Shown in pieces: positions 1,706 through 11,789 of a stretch of 33,117 bases of DNA. The stretch covers positions 1 to 33,117 of the IMG/VR virus record IMGVR_UViG_3300009430_000253. One strand, given 5' to 3'. Position numbers and translations under genes: made by a program. Within the stretch, counting starts at the first letter, position 1. Each line of letters opens with the position of its first letter. The notes below the pieces were generated by a model. That model was not told the origin of the DNA. It ran no database searches and was given only the letters and a program-made list of their open reading frames with translations. This stretch comes from a virus.

Positions 1706-1914
1706 ACCAAAACCAATCACAAGCACCAGCGGCGGAACCGATGGTGGGGGCGCGCCACGCGGCGCGTCTGCTCAACCTTCCGCCGTATTTCTTCACCAAA
1801 CCGCAGTGCCGCGTTTCGAATCGCATTCCGCACTACCGGGTCGGCCAGATGGTTCGCTTCCGGATGTCGGAGCTCAGGGCATGGGCAGTCACGCAAGGAG
1901 GAGCACATGAGTGA
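1702..1914 (+). CDS. Small helix-turn-helix DNA-binding protein (excisionase-like)
   Basis: A 70-residue protein. The ATG at 1702 overlaps the nuclease stop by four bases (ATGA), which is why I prefer it to the upstream in-frame ATG at 1660. Residues 14-60 read as a MerR/AlpA-like winged helix: an [11 protein letters not shown] segment, then a short wing with [10 protein letters not shown] and a final MSELRAW helix, the pattern of HTH_17 excisionase-family proteins. Such proteins direct excision or act as small transcription regulators. With no integrase in view, a local regulator of the early operon is as likely as an excisionase. The end overlaps the next gene by eight bases. Confidence 0.65.
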
Positions 1915-2503
1915 TTACCGTGTTCGCGTCACCGTGCGCAATGCCCGTCTGCTGCGTGCCATCGAACGGGCGGGCCACAGGCCGGGCGCTCCGTTCGCAG
2001 CCGTCGTCGGCATCAGCTACTACGGGGCGCTGTTGCCCTACATCAACCTCACGCGTTCGCCGTTGCGGCCGGATGGCTTGCTGCGGGAATGTGCGTGGAA
2101 CCTGTGTGACTTCCTGAACGCATCTCCCTCCGATCTGTGGTCGGATGCCCAGCTCCAGCCTCTGGAAACCAACCATTCCAGCATCGATCTGGATGCAGAC
2201 AGCGTGCAAGCCTTAGCCAGTGAAACGGCACCCGCCGACCCACTGCAGCTGGCCAGCCACGCGCAGGCAGGTCGCATTATTCAGGATGCCCTCGATACGC
2301 TGACACCTCGTGAGGCGGACGTGATCCGTGAGCGCTTCTTTGTCGGATCGTCGCTCGACGAGGTCGCCGAGAAGATGGAGGTCACGCGCGAGCGCGTCCG
2401 CCAGATCGAGGGTAAGGCGCTGCGAAAGCTGCGACACGAATCTCGTATTCCGCACGAACTGGCTGGCATTGCCGATGTGATCGGGGGGGCCACCGATGCT
2501 TGA
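1907..2503 (+). CDS. XRE-like / sigma-70 region 4 fusion regulator
   Basis: A 198-residue protein with two DNA-binding parts. Residues about 10-85 look like a Cro/XRE-type domain: a [14 protein letters not shown] helix, a [16 protein letters not shown] recognition segment and a DLWSDAQL end. Residues 132-177 are a clear sigma-70 region 4: [14 protein letters not shown], then [18 protein letters not shown] and ALRKLRH. Sigma regions 1-3 are absent, so it cannot serve alone as a full sigma factor by known rules; it more likely binds promoters or RNA polymerase to redirect transcription. A very strong ribosome site, AAGGAGGAG, sits six bases before the ATG, although the gene overlaps the HTH gene upstream by eight bases, so it may be made in larger amounts than its neighbours. 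It overlaps the primase gene by eight bases. Confidence 0.75.
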
Positions 2504-5997: not shown

Positions 5998-6214
5998 TCG
6001 GGCAGCTGTTGATGCTGGCAAGATTTCCTACGGCAATGTCCGTGATCAAACCTCTTACCAGCGTCGACGCAGGGTGTTCTGATGTCTTTGGGCGTGTGTG
6101 AGCATCAATCAGCTGCAACACGCACCCATGGGCGGTTTTTGGGCGTGCAGCATGAAGGCCGATTTGAGGGTAGAGTCTCGGCTACGGTCAGGAAAGAAGC
6201 GCAAGACGCAGATT

Positions 6215-6252
6215 CCATCAAATCGCTGACGCATCCGACGCAGATTTGATGG
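6215..6252. repeat. Perfect 10-base inverted repeat with flanking direct repeat
   Basis: CCATCAAATC at 6215-6224 is the exact reverse complement of GATTTGATGG at 6243-6252, leaving an 18-base loop. The same segment also carries a 10-base direct repeat, GACGCAGATT, at 6205-6214 and 6237-6246, so the second arm of the palindrome and the second direct copy overlap. It is not followed by a T run, so it is not a simple intrinsic terminator. It could be an operator bound by a dimeric regulator or an RNA hairpin. Confidence 0.55.
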
Positions 6253-6323
6253 GTCCTTCCGGTCGCCTCCGCTATGCGGGGGGCAACAGCGCGAGATTTC
6301 GATAGCGTCTGCCCCTGAAATGA

Positions 6324-6382
6324 GGTTACCACCCGGCCAGGTTACCGGCCTGTGGTTACCACCGCCCCTGACAGTTACCACC
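6324..6382 (+). repeat. Array of four GTTACC repeats (iteron-like)
   Basis: GTTACC occurs at 6325-6330, 6341-6346, 6355-6360 and 6374-6379. Three copies continue as GTTACCACC and the second as GTTACCGGCC. Two are preceded by the wider block GCCCCTGA (6311-6318 and 6364-6371). Spacing between copies is 16, 14 and 19 bases, so they are not in strict helical phase. All copies point the same way. Multiple short direct copies upstream of a gene fit a cooperative protein-binding site; similar short repeats also occur in the ends of some IS21-family elements, which is an alternative origin. Confidence 0.55.
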
Positions 6383-6397
6383 CCCACAAAATTTCTC

Positions 6398-6429
6398 ACC
6401 CGCCCGGCGGCAACGCTCGGCGGGTTTTT
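6398..6429 (+). terminator. Terminator-like hairpin directly before a methyltransferase gene
   Basis: ACCCGCC at 6398-6404 pairs with GGCGGGT at 6419-6425 over a 14-base loop, and the second arm runs into five Ts (6425-6429). This is a textbook intrinsic terminator shape. It ends only seven bases before the ATG at 6437, and no Shine-Dalgarno sequence fits between. Transcripts entering from upstream would tend to stop here, and in readthrough transcripts the hairpin would sit on the ribosome landing site. It may therefore work as an attenuator of the modification genes as well as the end of the early transcript. Confidence 0.6.
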
Positions 6430-6436
6430 CAATTCC

Positions 6437-7843
6437 ATGACGCCAAACCTGCAGATCGAATATCGCGCGATCGATGCGCTGCTGCCGTACGCTAGAAATC
6501 CGCGCACGCATTCGCCGGCCCAGATTGCCAAGATCGCAGCCAGCATCGTGGAGTTTGGCTGGACGCAACCCATCCTGGTCGATGGCGACAACGGCATCAT
6601 TGCGGGCCACGGTCGATTGGCAGCCGCGCGCAAGCTGGAACTGGCCGAGGTCCCTGTCATTGAACTGGGGCACCTGACCAGTGCGCAAAAGCGCGCCTAC
6701 GTGATCGCCGACAACCGCCTGGCACTGGATGCTGGTTGGGACGACGAGCTGTTGGCGCTCGAACTGGCAGAGCTGTCTGAGGCAGGCTACGACCTGCAGC
6801 TCACAGGTTTCGACGATCACGAGTTGGCCCAGATGCTGGCCGAAATCGATGATTCGGATGGCCAAAGTCCTGAAGACGAACCAGGCAGCGATGAGGACGA
6901 TGAGATCCCCGAGCCACCCAAGCAGCCGATCTCCCGACCAGGGGACGTCTGGCAACTGGGCCCTCACCGCCTGATCTGTGGCGACGCCAGTGATCCCTCA
7001 GTGGTCGCCACCCTGATGCAGGGCGAGCAGGCCAGCCTGTGTTTCACCTCGCCGCCCTACGGCAACCAGCGCGACTACACCTCTGGCGGCATCGCCGACT
7101 GGGATGTCCTGATGCGCGGCGTGTTTGCGCAAGTGCCCATGGCCGCCGACGGTCAGGTGCTGGTCAATTTGGGTCTGATCCACCGCGACAACGAGTTCAT
7201 CCCGTATTGGGATCAGTGGCTGCAATGGATGCGCAGCCAAGGCTGGCGGCGCTTTGCCTGGTACGTCTGGGACCAGGGGCCAGGGATGCCCGGCGACTGG
7301 CAAGGACGTCTCGCACCGAGCTTCGAATTCATCTTCCACTTCAACCGGCAGACCCGCAAACCCAACAAGACGGTGCCCTGCAAGTTCGCTGGTCAGGAGA
7401 CCCACCTGCGTGCCGATGGCTCCTCGACCGCGATGCGTGGCAAGGACGGCCAGGTCAACGGCTGGAACGCCGCAGGTCAGCCGACCCAGGACCACCGCAT
7501 CCCCGACTCGGTCATCCGGGTCATGCGCCACAAGGGAAAGATCGGCAAGGACATTGATCATCCAGCCGTGTTTCCGGTGACGCTGCCGGTCGAGGTCATC
7601 GAGGCCTACACCGACGAGGCTGAGATCGTCTTCGAGCCTTTTGGCGGCAGCGGCACCACGCTGATGGCAGCCCATCGCACCGGACGCATCGGCCGTGCCG
7701 TCGAGATCGCGCCGGAGTACGTCGACGTGGCGCTGATCCGTTTCCAACAGAACTTCCCCGGTGTGCCAGTCACCCTGGCTGCCACAGGCGAGACCTTTGA
7801 GGCCATCGCCCAACAACGACGAAGCGAATCCACCCATGTCTGA
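6437..7843 (+). CDS. ParB-like domain / DNA methyltransferase fusion, SPPY type
   Basis: A 468-residue protein. Residues about 5-140 are a ParB/sulfiredoxin-like domain: LLPYARNPRTHSPAQIAKIA, then VDGDNGIIAGHGRLAAARKL and a VIADNRLALDAGWDDELL segment. An acidic Pro-rich linker follows. The C-terminal half is a methyltransferase with the catalytic SPPY at residues 205-208 and the AdoMet-binding EPFGGSGTT at about 400-408. SPPY suggests an N4-cytosine enzyme by family rule, though this is not certain. It would modify phage DNA, probably against host restriction; no restriction gene accompanies it. The start at 6437 matches the beginning of the conserved domain; upstream in-frame ATGs would translate the repeat region and hairpin. 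Confidence 0.85.
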   Translation: MTPNLQIEYRAIDALLPYARNPRTHSPAQIAKIAASIVEFGWTQPILVDGDNGIIAGHGRLAAARKLELAEVPVIELGHLTSAQKRAYVIADNRLALDAGWDDELLALELAELSEAGYDLQLTGFDDHELAQMLAEIDDSDGQSPEDEPGSDEDDEIPEPPKQPISRPGDVWQLGPHRLICGDASDPSVVATLMQGEQASLCFTSPPYGNQRDYTSGGIADWDVLMRGVFAQVPMAADGQVLVNLGLIHRDNEFIPYWDQWLQWMRSQGWRRFAWYVWDQGPGMPGDWQGRLAPSFEFIFHFNRQTRKPNKTVPCKFAGQETHLRADGSSTAMRGKDGQVNGWNAAGQPTQDHRIPDSVIRVMRHKGKIGKDIDHPAVFPVTLPVEVIEAYTDEAEIVFEPFGGSGTTLMAAHRTGRIGRAVEIAPEYVDVALIRFQQNFPGVPVTLAATGETFEAIAQQRRSESTHV

Positions 7844-9137
7844 ACCCTGGCTCTCCACACACATCGAGCGTTGGCTCACCGAAAAACTGGTGCCCTACGC
7901 CCGCAATGCCCGCACTCACTCCGAGGAGCAGGTGGCGCAGATTGCCGCCTCCATCGTCGAGTTCGGCTTCACCAATCCGATCCTGGCGGGGTCCGACGGC
8001 GTGATCGTTGCTGGTCATGGACGCCTGGCCGCCGCGCAAAAGCTGGGTCTGGACACCGTGCCGGTGGTCGTGCTCGATCACCTGACGCCGACCCAGCGGC
8101 GCGCGCTGATCATTGCGGACAACCGCATCGCAGAAAACGCCAGCTGGGACGACGCCATGCTGCGCATCGAACTGCAGTCCTTGCAAGAAGACGGCTTCAA
8201 CCTGGACATCACCGGATTTGACGCCGAAGCCTTGGCCGAGATCATGGCGGGCGAAGAGACCACGGTCGATGGCCAGACGGATGACGATGCGGTGCCCGAA
8301 GTGTCGGCCACTCCCATCTCCCGCCCGGGTGATGTTTGGGAGCTGGGCAATCACCGGCTGGTGTGCGGCGATGCCACGGACCCCAAGAGCTACGAGCTGC
8401 TGATGGCCGATGCCAAGGCAGACATGATCGTGACAGATCCGCCCTATAACGTGGACTACGCCAACAGCGCCAAGGACAAGATGCGCGGCAAAGACCGTCC
8501 GATCCTGAACGACAACCTTGGCGATGGCTTCTACGACTTTTTGCTGTCGGCAATGACTCCAATGTTGGCGCGCTGTAGCGGAGCCGTCTATGTGGCCATG
8601 TCCTCCAGCGAACTCGATACGCTGCAGTCTGCATTCCGGGCTGCCGGTGGCAAGTGGTCCACCTTCATCATCTGGGCCAAGAACACTTTCACGCTTGGCC
8701 GCGCTGACTACCAGCGCCAGTACGAGCCCATCCTCTACGGCTGGCCCGAAGGAGAGAACCGCCACTGGTGCGGTGACCGCGACCAGGGCGATGTGTGGAA
8801 CATCAAGAAGCCACAGAAAAACGACCTGCACCCGACCATGAAGCCGGTGGAATTGGTCGAGCGTGCGATCCGCAATTCCAGCCGTCCAGGCGACATCGTG
8901 CTGGACCCGTTTGGCGGTTCGGGCACCACCCTCATCGCCGCAGAAAAAACCGGCCGCATCGGCTGGCTGATCGAACTCGATCCCAAGTACGTCGATGTGA
9001 TCGTGCGCCGCTGGCAAGATTGGACGGGGCAACGTACAGTACGCAAATCCGATGGTGTGGCCTTTGATGATCTGCTTGAACAGGCGACCCTGACGTCCAA
9101 AGTCCACGCCACAGCTGTAGGTGACCATGATCGTTGA
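7836..9137 (+). CDS. ParB-like domain / DNA methyltransferase fusion, DPPY type
   Basis: A 433-residue protein with the same architecture as its upstream neighbour: a ParB-like domain at about residues 17-150 (LVPYARNARTHSEEQVAQIA, then VIVAGHGRLAAAQKL and IIADNRIAENASWDD), then a methyltransferase with DPPY at 201-204 and DPFGGSGTT at 357-365, plus an LHPTMKPVEL motif typical of beta-class N6-adenine (or N4-cytosine) enzymes. The N-terminal domains of the two proteins are obviously homologous, the catalytic halves much less so, apart from the C-terminal FGGSGTT region. The ATG at 7836 overlaps the upstream stop by eight bases. Two enzymes with different motifs suggest two target sequences or two modified bases. 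No endonuclease partner is present. Confidence 0.87.
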   Translation: MSEPWLSTHIERWLTEKLVPYARNARTHSEEQVAQIAASIVEFGFTNPILAGSDGVIVAGHGRLAAAQKLGLDTVPVVVLDHLTPTQRRALIIADNRIAENASWDDAMLRIELQSLQEDGFNLDITGFDAEALAEIMAGEETTVDGQTDDDAVPEVSATPISRPGDVWELGNHRLVCGDATDPKSYELLMADAKADMIVTDPPYNVDYANSAKDKMRGKDRPILNDNLGDGFYDFLLSAMTPMLARCSGAVYVAMSSSELDTLQSAFRAAGGKWSTFIIWAKNTFTLGRADYQRQYEPILYGWPEGENRHWCGDRDQGDVWNIKKPQKNDLHPTMKPVELVERAIRNSSRPGDIVLDPFGGSGTTLIAAEKTGRIGWLIELDPKYVDVIVRRWQDWTGQRTVRKSDGVAFDDLLEQATLTSKVHATAVGDHDR

Positions 9138-9525
9138 TGTAATTGACCGCGAACGCAAGCTTCTTCGTCAACGCGATGAGGCCATGATGGCTTTGCGTGC
9201 TGCGGGCAAGTCATATGCCGACATCGCACGGGAATTTGGCATGAGTCTGGAAAACGTCAGGAAGCGAATTCAGTACACCCAACGGCAACAGCAAATGGAG
9301 CGGAGTACCAATCCATTCGAAAAAATACTGCCGACTACCGCCCGCATCTTGAAGTTGTCAGAGCTGAACACAGTACAACAAGTGGTCGAGCGATATTTCG
9401 CTCAAGAGCTACTGACGATTCACGGGTTCGGGTTCAAGGCTTTGCGCGACGTTGAGAAGCACTTTGTTCCTGGCTACCGCTACCAACGCGGCATCGGGAT
9501 CACTCAGACAACGACTCTTGCATGA
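9127..9525 (+). CDS. HTH protein with RNA polymerase alpha-CTD-like segment
   Basis: A 132-residue protein. Residues about 15-50 form a sigma region 4-like helix-turn-helix (MALRAAGKSYADIAREFGMS followed by NVRKRIQ). Residues about 65-115 resemble the helix-hairpin-helix of the RNA polymerase alpha C-terminal domain: ILKLSELNTVQQVVERY, then ELLTIHGFGFKALRDVEKHF. Alpha-CTD-like modules contact DNA or polymerase, so a transcription activator is a reasonable guess; that is inference. I prefer the ATG at 9127, five bases after AGGTG, over the in-frame GTG at 9121. It overlaps the methyltransferase end by 11 bases. The gene has visibly lower G+C than its neighbours, a sign of separate origin. Its last 26 bases overlap the end of the opposing gene. 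Confidence 0.65.
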   Translation: MIVDVIDRERKLLRQRDEAMMALRAAGKSYADIAREFGMSLENVRKRIQYTQRQQQMERSTNPFEKILPTTARILKLSELNTVQQVVERYFAQELLTIHGFGFKALRDVEKHFVPGYRYQRGIGITQTTTLA

Positions 9526-9868
9526 TCTCGCAGTGAATCACAAAGCCGATCAAATAGGGAATCCCTTTTGGGATGCCATATTGCTTGCTGGTCAGGCGAC
9601 CGATGGTCCATCCCATCCAGCGTTGGGTGGCCTGCTCGATGGCATCCTGGAGTTTTGCCCCGGCGAAAAACCCATTGTGCACATCGTCAGCAAAGTGGCG
9701 TCCGTGGCGGCTGTCCAAAAATGCGCAAACCGATTCGAGGGGCTGGTTGGTGGCGTCCGAAATCGCCGTCATGGCGATGGGCCAGGCGGCCTCGGCCTGG
9801 TCTTGCATCGTGCCCCAGTAGCCCCAATCCGTGACGGTGGGGGCGGGAATCTGTTTTCTGGTGTTCAT
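9500..9868 (-). CDS. Unknown protein, last gene of the minus-strand cassette
   Basis: A 122-residue protein I do not recognise. It is rich in aromatic residues near the N-terminus (VTDWGYWGTM), has a helical middle with CAFLDSRHGRHFADDV, and a C-terminal WMGWTIGR then GIPYLIGFVIHCE hydrophobic segment. The ATG at 9868 starts a NTRKQIPAP leader; a longer frame upstream lacks a ribosome site. An AAAGG lies about 12 bases upstream of the ATG. Coding is supported by its amino-acid composition and by the lack of a sensible product on the other strand. It is tail-to-tail with the HTH protein gene, with 26 shared bases. No signal peptide is visible. Confidence 0.6.
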   Translation of the reverse strand: MNTRKQIPAPTVTDWGYWGTMQDQAEAAWPIAMTAISDATNQPLESVCAFLDSRHGRHFADDVHNGFFAGAKLQDAIEQATQRWMGWTIGRLTSKQYGIPKGIPYLIGFVIHCEIMQESLSE

Positions 9869-9974
9869 GGGGTTCTGCCTTTTGTGGATCGTTGCGATAC
9901 CCTTAGTAACGCGCTCTTCAATCAAAAAGCCAAGGTCCTGAACGAAGAAGATTCACACCGTGGCCGTGGCACCA

Positions 9975-10334
9975 CTACCCCATCTTGGCAACGTACCTCG
10001 GGTAGTCCCCGCCAGATGGGTCGATGAACAAATAGGGTCGACCAGGGGCGTGGACTTCCACGCACAGGCGGCCTTGCATGAAATAGCCGCCCTTGCCTTT
10101 GAGCCAGTCACGTGACTTGTAGAGGTTCATGGAAAAGCCATCGAACTCCTCCGGCGTCATGGTCTTGGTTTCCGTGACGTAAACCACGTCGTTGCCACTG
10201 GCCGCAATGTCGTTGATGTCTGTGGGCTTGCGTCCAAAGGGCAAACGGATGCTCAATTCTTCAACCTGCACCTGCTGACCATCGAACATGATGGTCAGGG
10301 GTTTGCGATCAATTGTGATGGTCATTGTTTTCAT
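9975..10334 (-). CDS. Unknown protein in minus-strand cassette
   Basis: A 119-residue protein starting with MKTMTITIDRKPLTI, then a strand-rich N-terminal half (QVQVEELSIRLPFG) and a DVVYVTETKTMTPEEFDGF segment, ending with PYLFIDPSGGDYPRYV. I do not recognise a named family. The ATG at 10334 is chosen because a good AGGAG lies about ten bases upstream; the much longer open frame beyond it is the antisense-like extension through the DUF3489 gene. The spacing to the upstream gene is only 14 bases, so the two are probably on one transcript. The alternating hydrophobic pattern suggests a small beta-sheet protein; no function can be given. Confidence 0.65.
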   Translation of the reverse strand: MKTMTITIDRKPLTIMFDGQQVQVEELSIRLPFGRKPTDINDIAASGNDVVYVTETKTMTPEEFDGFSMNLYKSRDWLKGKGGYFMQGRLCVEVHAPGRPYLFIDPSGGDYPRYVAKMG

Positions 10335-10348
10335 ATCCTGGCTCCTGT

Positions 10349-10828
10349 TCAGGCGACGCGGTAAATCCGCTGTCCACCAGCCTCCTTCGTCGAGGTGATC
10401 TCCAGGCCGAGTTTCTTTTTGAAGGCGCCGGCAAACGTCCCTCTCACTGTGTGCTGCATCCATCCGGTGGCCTCGCAGATCTGCGCGATGGTGGCACCTT
10501 CGGGGCGCTTGAGCATGACAATCACCTGCGCTTGTTTGCTGTTGTCTCGGGTCCGTGGCTTGGACTGCTGTGCAGCTTCGATGGCCGTATCCAGATGTTG
10601 GACGTTCAAGGGTGCCTTGCAAGGTACGCCCAGCGCGTCATAGCCCTCGGCGGCCAGGAACCAATCCTTGCCGTCATAGGTGATCAGACCGCGTTTGAAC
10701 AAACCATCGATCACCTTCTGGCGGGCGCCGCCCTTGATGTTGTCAGGGAACCATTCGATCTTGCCTTCGGTGTGCCGATGGGCGTGATCCAGGATGGCGT
10801 GCTGGGCGGGTGTGAGTTGGGTGGTCAT
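10349..10828 (-). CDS. DUF3489-type winged-helix protein
   Basis: A 159-residue protein of the DUF3489 type. The N-terminal half reads TPAQHAILDHAHRHTEGKI and then GLFKRGLITYDGKDWFLAAEGYDALG, a winged-helix-like unit. The C-terminal half holds the DUF3489 signature: VIVMLKRPEGATIAQICEAT, then a W-x-HTVRG turn and FKKKLGLEITSTKE, followed by an IYRV end. It therefore looks like two tandem winged helices joined by a basic linker, a likely DNA-binding regulator. Start at 10828 has AAGGA seven bases upstream. The protein family is widespread in proteobacteria and phages but has no established biochemical role that I know of. Confidence 0.8.
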   Translation of the reverse strand: MTTQLTPAQHAILDHAHRHTEGKIEWFPDNIKGGARQKVIDGLFKRGLITYDGKDWFLAAEGYDALGVPCKAPLNVQHLDTAIEAAQQSKPRTRDNSKQAQVIVMLKRPEGATIAQICEATGWMQHTVRGTFAGAFKKKLGLEITSTKEAGGQRIYRVA

Positions 10829-10838
10829 GTTGATCCTT

Positions 10839-11048
10839 TCAGGTGCGGTTTGTTTGAGTGGGGGATTGCGTTGTTGCCATACGGCCTGCTTCAAAGGCTG
10901 CTTGCAGGGCGCTTTTGACAGCCCAGACGCTGACCTCATGAAAGTCGAGGCGGTCGCTCATTTGGGTTTCCAGGGTCTGGATGAAAAGGTGATCGAGGGC
11001 GATCTTTTCAAGCTGGTCTTGGTTGTGCTGGGTGTTTTGTTTCTTCAT
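10839..11048 (-). CDS. DUF6900-type small protein
   Basis: A 69-residue protein with LEKIALDHLFIQTLETQMSD followed by LDFHEVSVWAVKSALQAAFEAG, the pattern of DUF6900. Start at 11048 with AAAGG eight bases upstream. It is the first gene of the minus-strand cassette, so any promoter should lie in 11049-11207; I could not pick a convincing -35/-10 pair there. Mostly helical, no membrane segment, function unknown. The co-occurrence of this type with DUF3489 proteins in prophages is my recollection and not something the sequence shows. Confidence 0.75.
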   Translation of the reverse strand: MKKQNTQHNQDQLEKIALDHLFIQTLETQMSDRLDFHEVSVWAVKSALQAAFEAGRMATTQSPTQTNRT

Positions 11049-11207
11049 CGTCTTGGCCTTTCGATTGCCTGTTGTGTTGAGGACGATGTGATTGACGCGC
11101 TGTTCGCAACCGAAGCCAAGCTCTTTCTTATCCCGGGTGATTCACTCGCCTTTGCATGACAACCAGCATTCCGGAGGCCACCCACTTGCATTGAGTAGAT
11201 CAACACC
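11049..11207. promoter_or_regulatory. Divergent intergenic region between minus-strand cassette and packaging operon
   Basis: The 159 bases separate DUF6900 (minus) from the small terminase (plus). It is the only divergent junction in the window and therefore must carry, or be read through from, start signals for both sides. I saw no convincing sigma-70 -35/-10 pair, no long palindrome, and no coding frame with a ribosome site. The base composition is a little lower in G+C than the flanking genes. A phage-specific activator such as the HTH/alpha-CTD-like protein encoded nearby could be needed here; that is speculation. The packaging site cos, if this phage uses one, would also commonly lie just before the small terminase gene. 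Confidence 0.4.
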
Positions 11208-11789
11208 ATGGGACTGTCCATTCGCGCCTACGCGCGCCACCGAGGCGTGTCGCACGTGGCCGTCAAGAAAGCCATCGACACCGGACGCATCAGCCAGTTG
11301 CCGGACGGCACCATCGATCAGGTGGTGGCCGATGCCCAGTGGGCGGCCAACACCACGCCGACGCGGCGGTCGGTGGGCGATGTCGCCAGTGACAAGCCTG
11401 CCCCGCAGGTTTCCGCCCCTGGCCGCGAGGCTCCGCAGGCTTCCGCAAAGGTTGTGCGTGACGCGCCAGAGCCACCCACCCCGGCGCTGTCATCGGGTGG
11501 CACTTCGCTGCTGCAGGCCCGCACCGTCAACGAGGTGGTCAAGGCGCAAACGAACAAGGTGCGCCTGGCCCGATTGAAGGGCGAACTGGTCGATCGCTCA
11601 CAGGCCGTGGCCCATGTGTTCAAGCTGGCCCGGGCCGAGCGCGATGCCTGGTTGAACTGGCCGGCGCGCATCTCTTCGCAGATGGCCGCAGGGCTGGGTG
11701 TCGATCCGCATGCCTTGCATGTGGCGCTCGACGCCGCCGTGCGCCAGCTACTGCAGGACCTGGGCGACTTGCAGGCCAAGGTGGATTGA
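11208..11789 (+). CDS. Terminase small subunit (Nu1-like)
   Basis: A 193-residue protein. The N-terminus (LSIRAYARHRGVSHVAVKKAID) is a winged-helix DNA-binding domain like lambda Nu1 and would bind the packaging start site on phage DNA. A Pro/Ala-rich linker covers residues about 50-100. The C-terminal half (VRLARLKGELVDRSQAVAHVFKL, then RDAWLNWPARIS and VDPHALHVALD) matches the oligomerisation region seen in small terminases annotated as elements of external origin. It sits directly before the large subunit, with its stop sharing one base with the next ATG. The gene is divergent from the minus-strand cassette, and 11049-11207 must hold any start signals for both. Confidence 0.83.
   Translation: MGLSIRAYARHRGVSHVAVKKAIDTGRISQLPDGTIDQVVADAQWAANTTPTRRSVGDVASDKPAPQVSAPGREAPQASAKVVRDAPEPPTPALSSGGTSLLQARTVNEVVKAQTNKVRLARLKGELVDRSQAVAHVFKLARAERDAWLNWPARISSQMAAGLGVDPHALHVALDAAVRQLLQDLGDLQAKVD

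Follow-up and report, generated by a model that had tools for sequence, protein, structure and literature searches.

A phage cargo gene combining a helix-turn-helix with a probable alpha-CTD-like segment

Introduction

What would a phage gain from a small protein that places a helix-turn-helix (HTH) next to a segment resembling the C-terminal domain of the RNA polymerase (RNAP) alpha subunit (alpha-CTD)? The question is raised by an open reading frame at 9127-9525 (+ strand) of a 33,117-base IMG/VR virus record, which is the whole stretch of DNA analysed here (the window). The frame starts with ATG and encodes 132 residues comprising an N-terminal HTH and a probable alpha-CTD-like C-terminal segment. 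The best explanation, which we hold at about even probability, is accessory cargo of the moron type that encodes an optional two-part transcription regulator.

The gene and its carriers

The start of the frame lies within the last codons of the upstream methylase gene and overlaps its stop (9135-9137) by 11 bases. Because the start is inside the methylase end, translation is probably coupled to that of the methylase. At the 3' end, the frame overlaps the end of the convergent phrog_8020 gene (9500-9868, - strand) by 26 bases. The gene had been described initially as lower in G+C than its neighbours, and this holds for the total composition (0.518 vs. 0.61-0.65 in the nearby methylase, terminase and primase genes) as well as for third codon positions (0.59 vs. 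0.76-0.80 in the same genes).

Two other carriers encode proteins of 90 and 94% identity, namely a viral contig (L001) and a proviral region (L002), respectively. The latter lies in a metagenome-assembled genome (MAG) on a contig labelled Alphaproteobacteria, while the RpoA C-terminus of the same MAG (L025) looks beta- or gammaproteobacterial. Between the three full-length copies, dN is 0.03-0.05 and dS 0.17-0.21, and dN/dS is roughly 0.11-0.37 depending on the region and the pair. Hence, both halves are maintained as protein and are under purifying selection among the three carriers, a conservation signal that is shallow because the known members are three and near-identical. The collection scans for further members relied on exact peptide patterns, which are prone to miss distant relatives. 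When such relatives were sought by protein search in phages, in plasmids and in the genomes of one order (300) and of the phylum (398), the matches were confined to the HTH or were short and attributable to chance (IS21 transposases, exonucleases and other long open reading frames); the one exception was a true RpoA C-terminus, which matched weakly (L039, E 0.016). A relation to IS21 IstA was rejected, as the match is confined to the HTH and a transposase domain is absent. A sequence search of the PDB gave no significant match, and none of the defence-system models matched the protein.

An HTH without sigma specificity

The HTH occupies residues ~11-50 (9157-9276, + strand) and is of the sigma region 4, LuxR or Mor type according to Pfam, AlphaFold and structural matches. 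Its initial reading as sigma region 4-like is borne out by Pfam Sigma70_r4_2, which matches residues 11-50 with 28.2 bits (cut-off 25.7). AlphaFold gives pLDDT values of 86-93 across the HTH. In the other two carriers the same family scores 27.2 bits (L002) and 18.2 bits (L001), the latter below the cut-off. Other HTH families, including Mor, match the N-terminal half more weakly in Pfam, and the structural neighbours of the HTH model comprise sigma region 4 as well as DeoR, DosR, LuxR-type and Mu Mor HTHs. The N-terminal HTH is thus confirmed, and the match is not sigma-specific. No family for sigma region 2, which is responsible for core binding and -10 recognition, was found in the 132 residues at E <= 10. 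Since region 2 is absent, the protein is not a sigma factor and this identity was rejected.

A probable alpha-CTD-like helix-hairpin-helix

The alpha-CTD-like helix-hairpin-helix (HhH) segment is delimited by PF03118 and hhalign to residues ~69-112 (9331-9462, + strand) with the core LLTIHGFGFKALRDVEK. RNA_pol_A_CTD (PF03118) is the sole sensible Pfam match of the C-terminal half (residues 75-111, E 0.03-0.11), so the profile search points to the family named initially, but with 12.7-14.5 bits in the three members it reaches about half the curated cut-off of 23.8. As this family had been named beforehand, the single-family significance would be ~1e-6 to 4e-6 (obtained by dividing E by the 24,736 models), but the initial annotation had many genes to choose from, so the effective value is weaker.

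Profile-profile comparison is more favourable. With hhalign, the three members align to 20 RpoA C-terminal domains with a probability of 51% and a score of 24.9 over 42 collinear columns, which run from the LK of the first helix to the GFG-K of the hairpin, and none of 500 column shuffles scored as high. When five further alpha-CTDs from phage records are added, one of them belonging to an ordinary RpoA of full length on an unverified contig, the probability rises to 79% and the score to 29.4, which 0/1000 shuffles reached (best 19.7). The control, an HhH profile of RuvA built from 17 loci, scores 23.7 with a probability of 53% over 30 columns. The initial claim of an alpha-CTD-like segment is therefore upheld in part: the hhalign matches exceed all 1,500 shuffles, whereas Pfam stays below its cut-off and the RuvA HhH nearly equals the bacterial alpha-CTD profile. 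Because the RuvA profile scores close behind, an HhH is well supported, and better so than an alpha-CTD in particular. Between the two profiles the alignments favour the alpha-CTD, and an alpha-CTD-like identity of the segment is probable.

The predicted structure adds helix order but little confidence. AlphaFold places C-terminal helices at 63-78, 83-91, 94-99 and 103-113 of the full-length protein, in an alpha-CTD-like order but with pLDDT ~50, and it predicts three helices for residues 62-121 alone (pLDDT 54). Both runs used 3-sequence alignments, with a C-terminal pLDDT of ~50-60. Fold searches retrieved HTH proteins alone for the full model and no meaningful match for the C-terminus, and the lack of alpha-CTDs from these lists is uninformative given the low confidence of the C-terminal model.

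The E. coli alpha-CTD contacts the DNA minor groove through R265, N294 and K298 (PMC5101437). In the hhalign alignment the equivalent residues are T70 (N in L001 and L002), G100 and K104, i.e., one of the three is kept. Compared with the alpha-CTD (PF03118), the protein shares 41-42 collinear columns, the helix order, the GFG-K hairpin and the equivalents of K271 and K298; it differs in the replacements of R265 by T/N and of N294 by G and in a one-residue insertion before the HhH. Unlike the RNAP alpha subunit as a whole, it scores below the Pfam cut-off, lacks the alpha-NTD and carries an HTH.

Relation to known proteins

A related architecture is found in MT835636, a human-gut phage (L137, 1422-2417), which encodes a 332-residue protein in which HTH_17, Sigma70_r4 and RNA_pol_A_CTD each exceed the Pfam cut-off. 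The likeness lies in a sigma region 4-type HTH followed by an alpha-CTD domain, whereas the MT835636 protein has an additional excisionase-type HTH at its N-terminus and a canonical alpha-CTD (53 bits). A direct sequence relation between the two proteins was not detectable. The gut-phage protein has a relative covering 80% of its length in a second gut-phage record (MT837876), and a copy with 99% identity is present in IMG/VR (L195). In addition, a Chryseobacterium plasmid protein annotated as an alpha-CTD-domain protein (WP_124785686.1) aligns to residues 88-268 of the MT835636 protein. Proteins with an HTH and an alpha-CTD are thus already known in other phages and plasmids, among which the protein studied here would be, from its sequence, a small and divergent example.

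Phage-encoded alpha-CTD domains are also fused to other parts in Goe8_c00050, Mazun gp26 and Ruegeria V16_23, where the partner of the last is a pyrophosphatase. Unlike the protein studied here, none of these three has a sigma-type HTH partner by Pfam. The late activators Mor and C of phage Mu (PF08765; phrog_836, phrog_532) share an HTH of the same general type, with a match to phrog_836 (E 4.6e-5), a PF08765 match below the cut-off (E 0.07, 13.6 bits vs. 24.9) and a structural match to 1rr7. In contrast to Mor, the protein lacks the N-terminal dimerisation domain and carries its extra domain at the C-terminus. A PF03118 search over 143 genomes of the class returned nearly exclusively RpoA-sized frames and no short HTH/alpha-CTD gene, and none of the papers in the literature searched dealt with a phage protein of the HTH/alpha-CTD kind.

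The gene occupies an exchangeable slot

The gene lies between a ParB-N + N6/N4 DNA methyltransferase gene (7836-9137, + strand) and the convergent phrog_8020 gene, where an operon of small genes runs towards it. In blastn comparisons with 11 non-carrier loci, identity ends at 9014-9032 (at 9072 in one locus) and returns at 9499-9525. These breakpoints and the slot contents delimit a cassette at 9033-9498 that is replaced or missing in non-carriers. A search with the phrog_8020 protein yielded 80 viral loci, 78 of which have the methylase adjoining; the HTH protein is present in 0/78 of these contigs, the best match being at chance level (E 2.3). Across the loci L053-L132, the slot is empty in many relatives, where the flanking genes abut or overlap (gap -9 to -27). 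In others, it is filled with genes for DUF7220 membrane proteins, a PDDEXK (PDDEXK_5) endonuclease, and proteins that we take to be HNH-like and Fic-like, the latter with 381 residues and DUF4172. Acidithiobacillus phage AcaML1 has a matching gene order (methylases, small minus-strand genes, terminase) and carries gp26, a small DUF7220-like membrane protein, in the slot. To judge from these alignments, the 9033-9498 region is a cassette-exchange slot for hypervariable cargo in a temperate phage, and the gene is one such accessory cassette, with no more than three related elements found to carry it.

The upstream flank itself belongs to a pair of consecutive ParB-N + N6/N4 methyltransferase genes (6320-7843 and 7836-9137) with 65-75% mutual DNA identity in cross-matches, which is probably a tandem duplication.

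Other regulatory candidates in the window

A 198-residue protein encoded at 1907-2503 (+ strand) ends in a canonical sigma-70 region 4 (67.9 bits), has no region 2 and also resembles the end of MzaA. It occurs in at least 33 viral contigs, some of them with an empty slot, and in the L002 prophage, and was not seen in AcaML1. With this distribution it is a candidate phage regulator and would suit the role of a conserved regulator better than the HTH protein does.

The repeat TGAACGCGCTGTTC-N7-AAGCCAAG is present at 9908-9934 and 11094-11120, and in L014 at ~10058, 10736 and 11868, compared with 0.02 copies expected by chance. It contains the dyad GAAC-N5-GTTC, and its reverse complement contains TTGGCT. 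The copies in the window are located just upstream of two genes on the minus strand, whose starts are at 9868 and 11048, and many related phages have 2-5 copies, with or without the HTH gene. Possibly, the repeat serves as a phage-specific promoter or operator.

Possible functions

The initial annotation saw in the protein a possible activator of phage promoters, for instance before the packaging operon. As a late-gene activator, the protein would bind near the packaging promoter with its HTH and recruit or replace the host alpha-CTD with its alpha-CTD-like domain. The architecture agrees with such a role, as does the position of the gene, which comes last in the early operon on the plus strand and shortly before the packaging operon. 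Furthermore, a search for sigma-70-type promoters in 9300-11400 found 0 sites (0.9 expected), consistent with the initial remark that the divergent region has no ordinary promoter. However, the gene is missing from 78/78 relatives with matching flanking genes, and the supposed targets are conserved without it: identity across the divergent region 10900-11300 is 93% for L001 and L002 and still 91-92% for the non-carriers L079, L103 (both 92%) and L105 (91%), and region 5998-6330 is 93-94% identical in the non-carriers L082 and L103. The target of an activator should travel with its gene, yet the region is equally conserved in its absence, which contradicts the proposed role. The sigma region 4 protein at 1907-2503, present also in phages with an empty slot, is the better candidate for a core regulator. 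We therefore consider an essential late activator very improbable. Only slightly less improbable is a decoy, in which the alpha-CTD-like segment would titrate host activators or occupy sigma region 4 and so redirect transcription in the lysogenic or infected host; the alpha-CTD-like segment and a cargo location typical of host-modifying genes would agree with this idea. A broader version, in which the HTH would deliver an alpha-CTD-like domain of its own to promoters and the compact protein would serve in trans as an additional alpha-CTD or as a decoy for host activators, carried as optional cargo by temperate phages, is still improbable, though less so.

The C-terminal part might instead be an ordinary HhH, RuvA-like or unclassified, in which case the gene would encode a DNA-binding protein of the HTH-HhH type that is unconnected with RNAP. 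The close hhalign scores of the RuvA HhH and the bacterial alpha-CTD, the loss of the R265 and N294 equivalents and a PF03118 score of about half the cut-off are consistent with this alternative, but the RuvA match covers 30 columns whereas that to the alpha-CTD covers 41-42, with the first helix among them. The alpha-CTD profile scores clearly better once broadened, and a Pfam scan of the C-terminus alone matched no HhH family. On balance, we regard an ordinary HhH as rather unlikely, while giving it serious weight.

In the reading as an optional two-part regulator carried as cargo, the HTH would be expected to bind a DNA site. The alpha-CTD-like HhH would be expected to provide a second, weaker contact, either with DNA (its backbone or minor groove) or with a surface of RNAP or an activator. 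Expression would probably come from the early/middle operon by read-through, together with the translational coupling to the methylase. Such a regulator may modulate a non-essential target, either host genes or its own neighbourhood.

Implications

The slot between the methyltransferase and phrog_8020 genes recurs in a widespread phage group and is a place to seek accessory functions. If the alpha-CTD reading is true, the protein would be a small natural case in which a phage has joined an HTH and an RNAP recruitment module, and it would be useful for testing how far an alpha-CTD works in trans.
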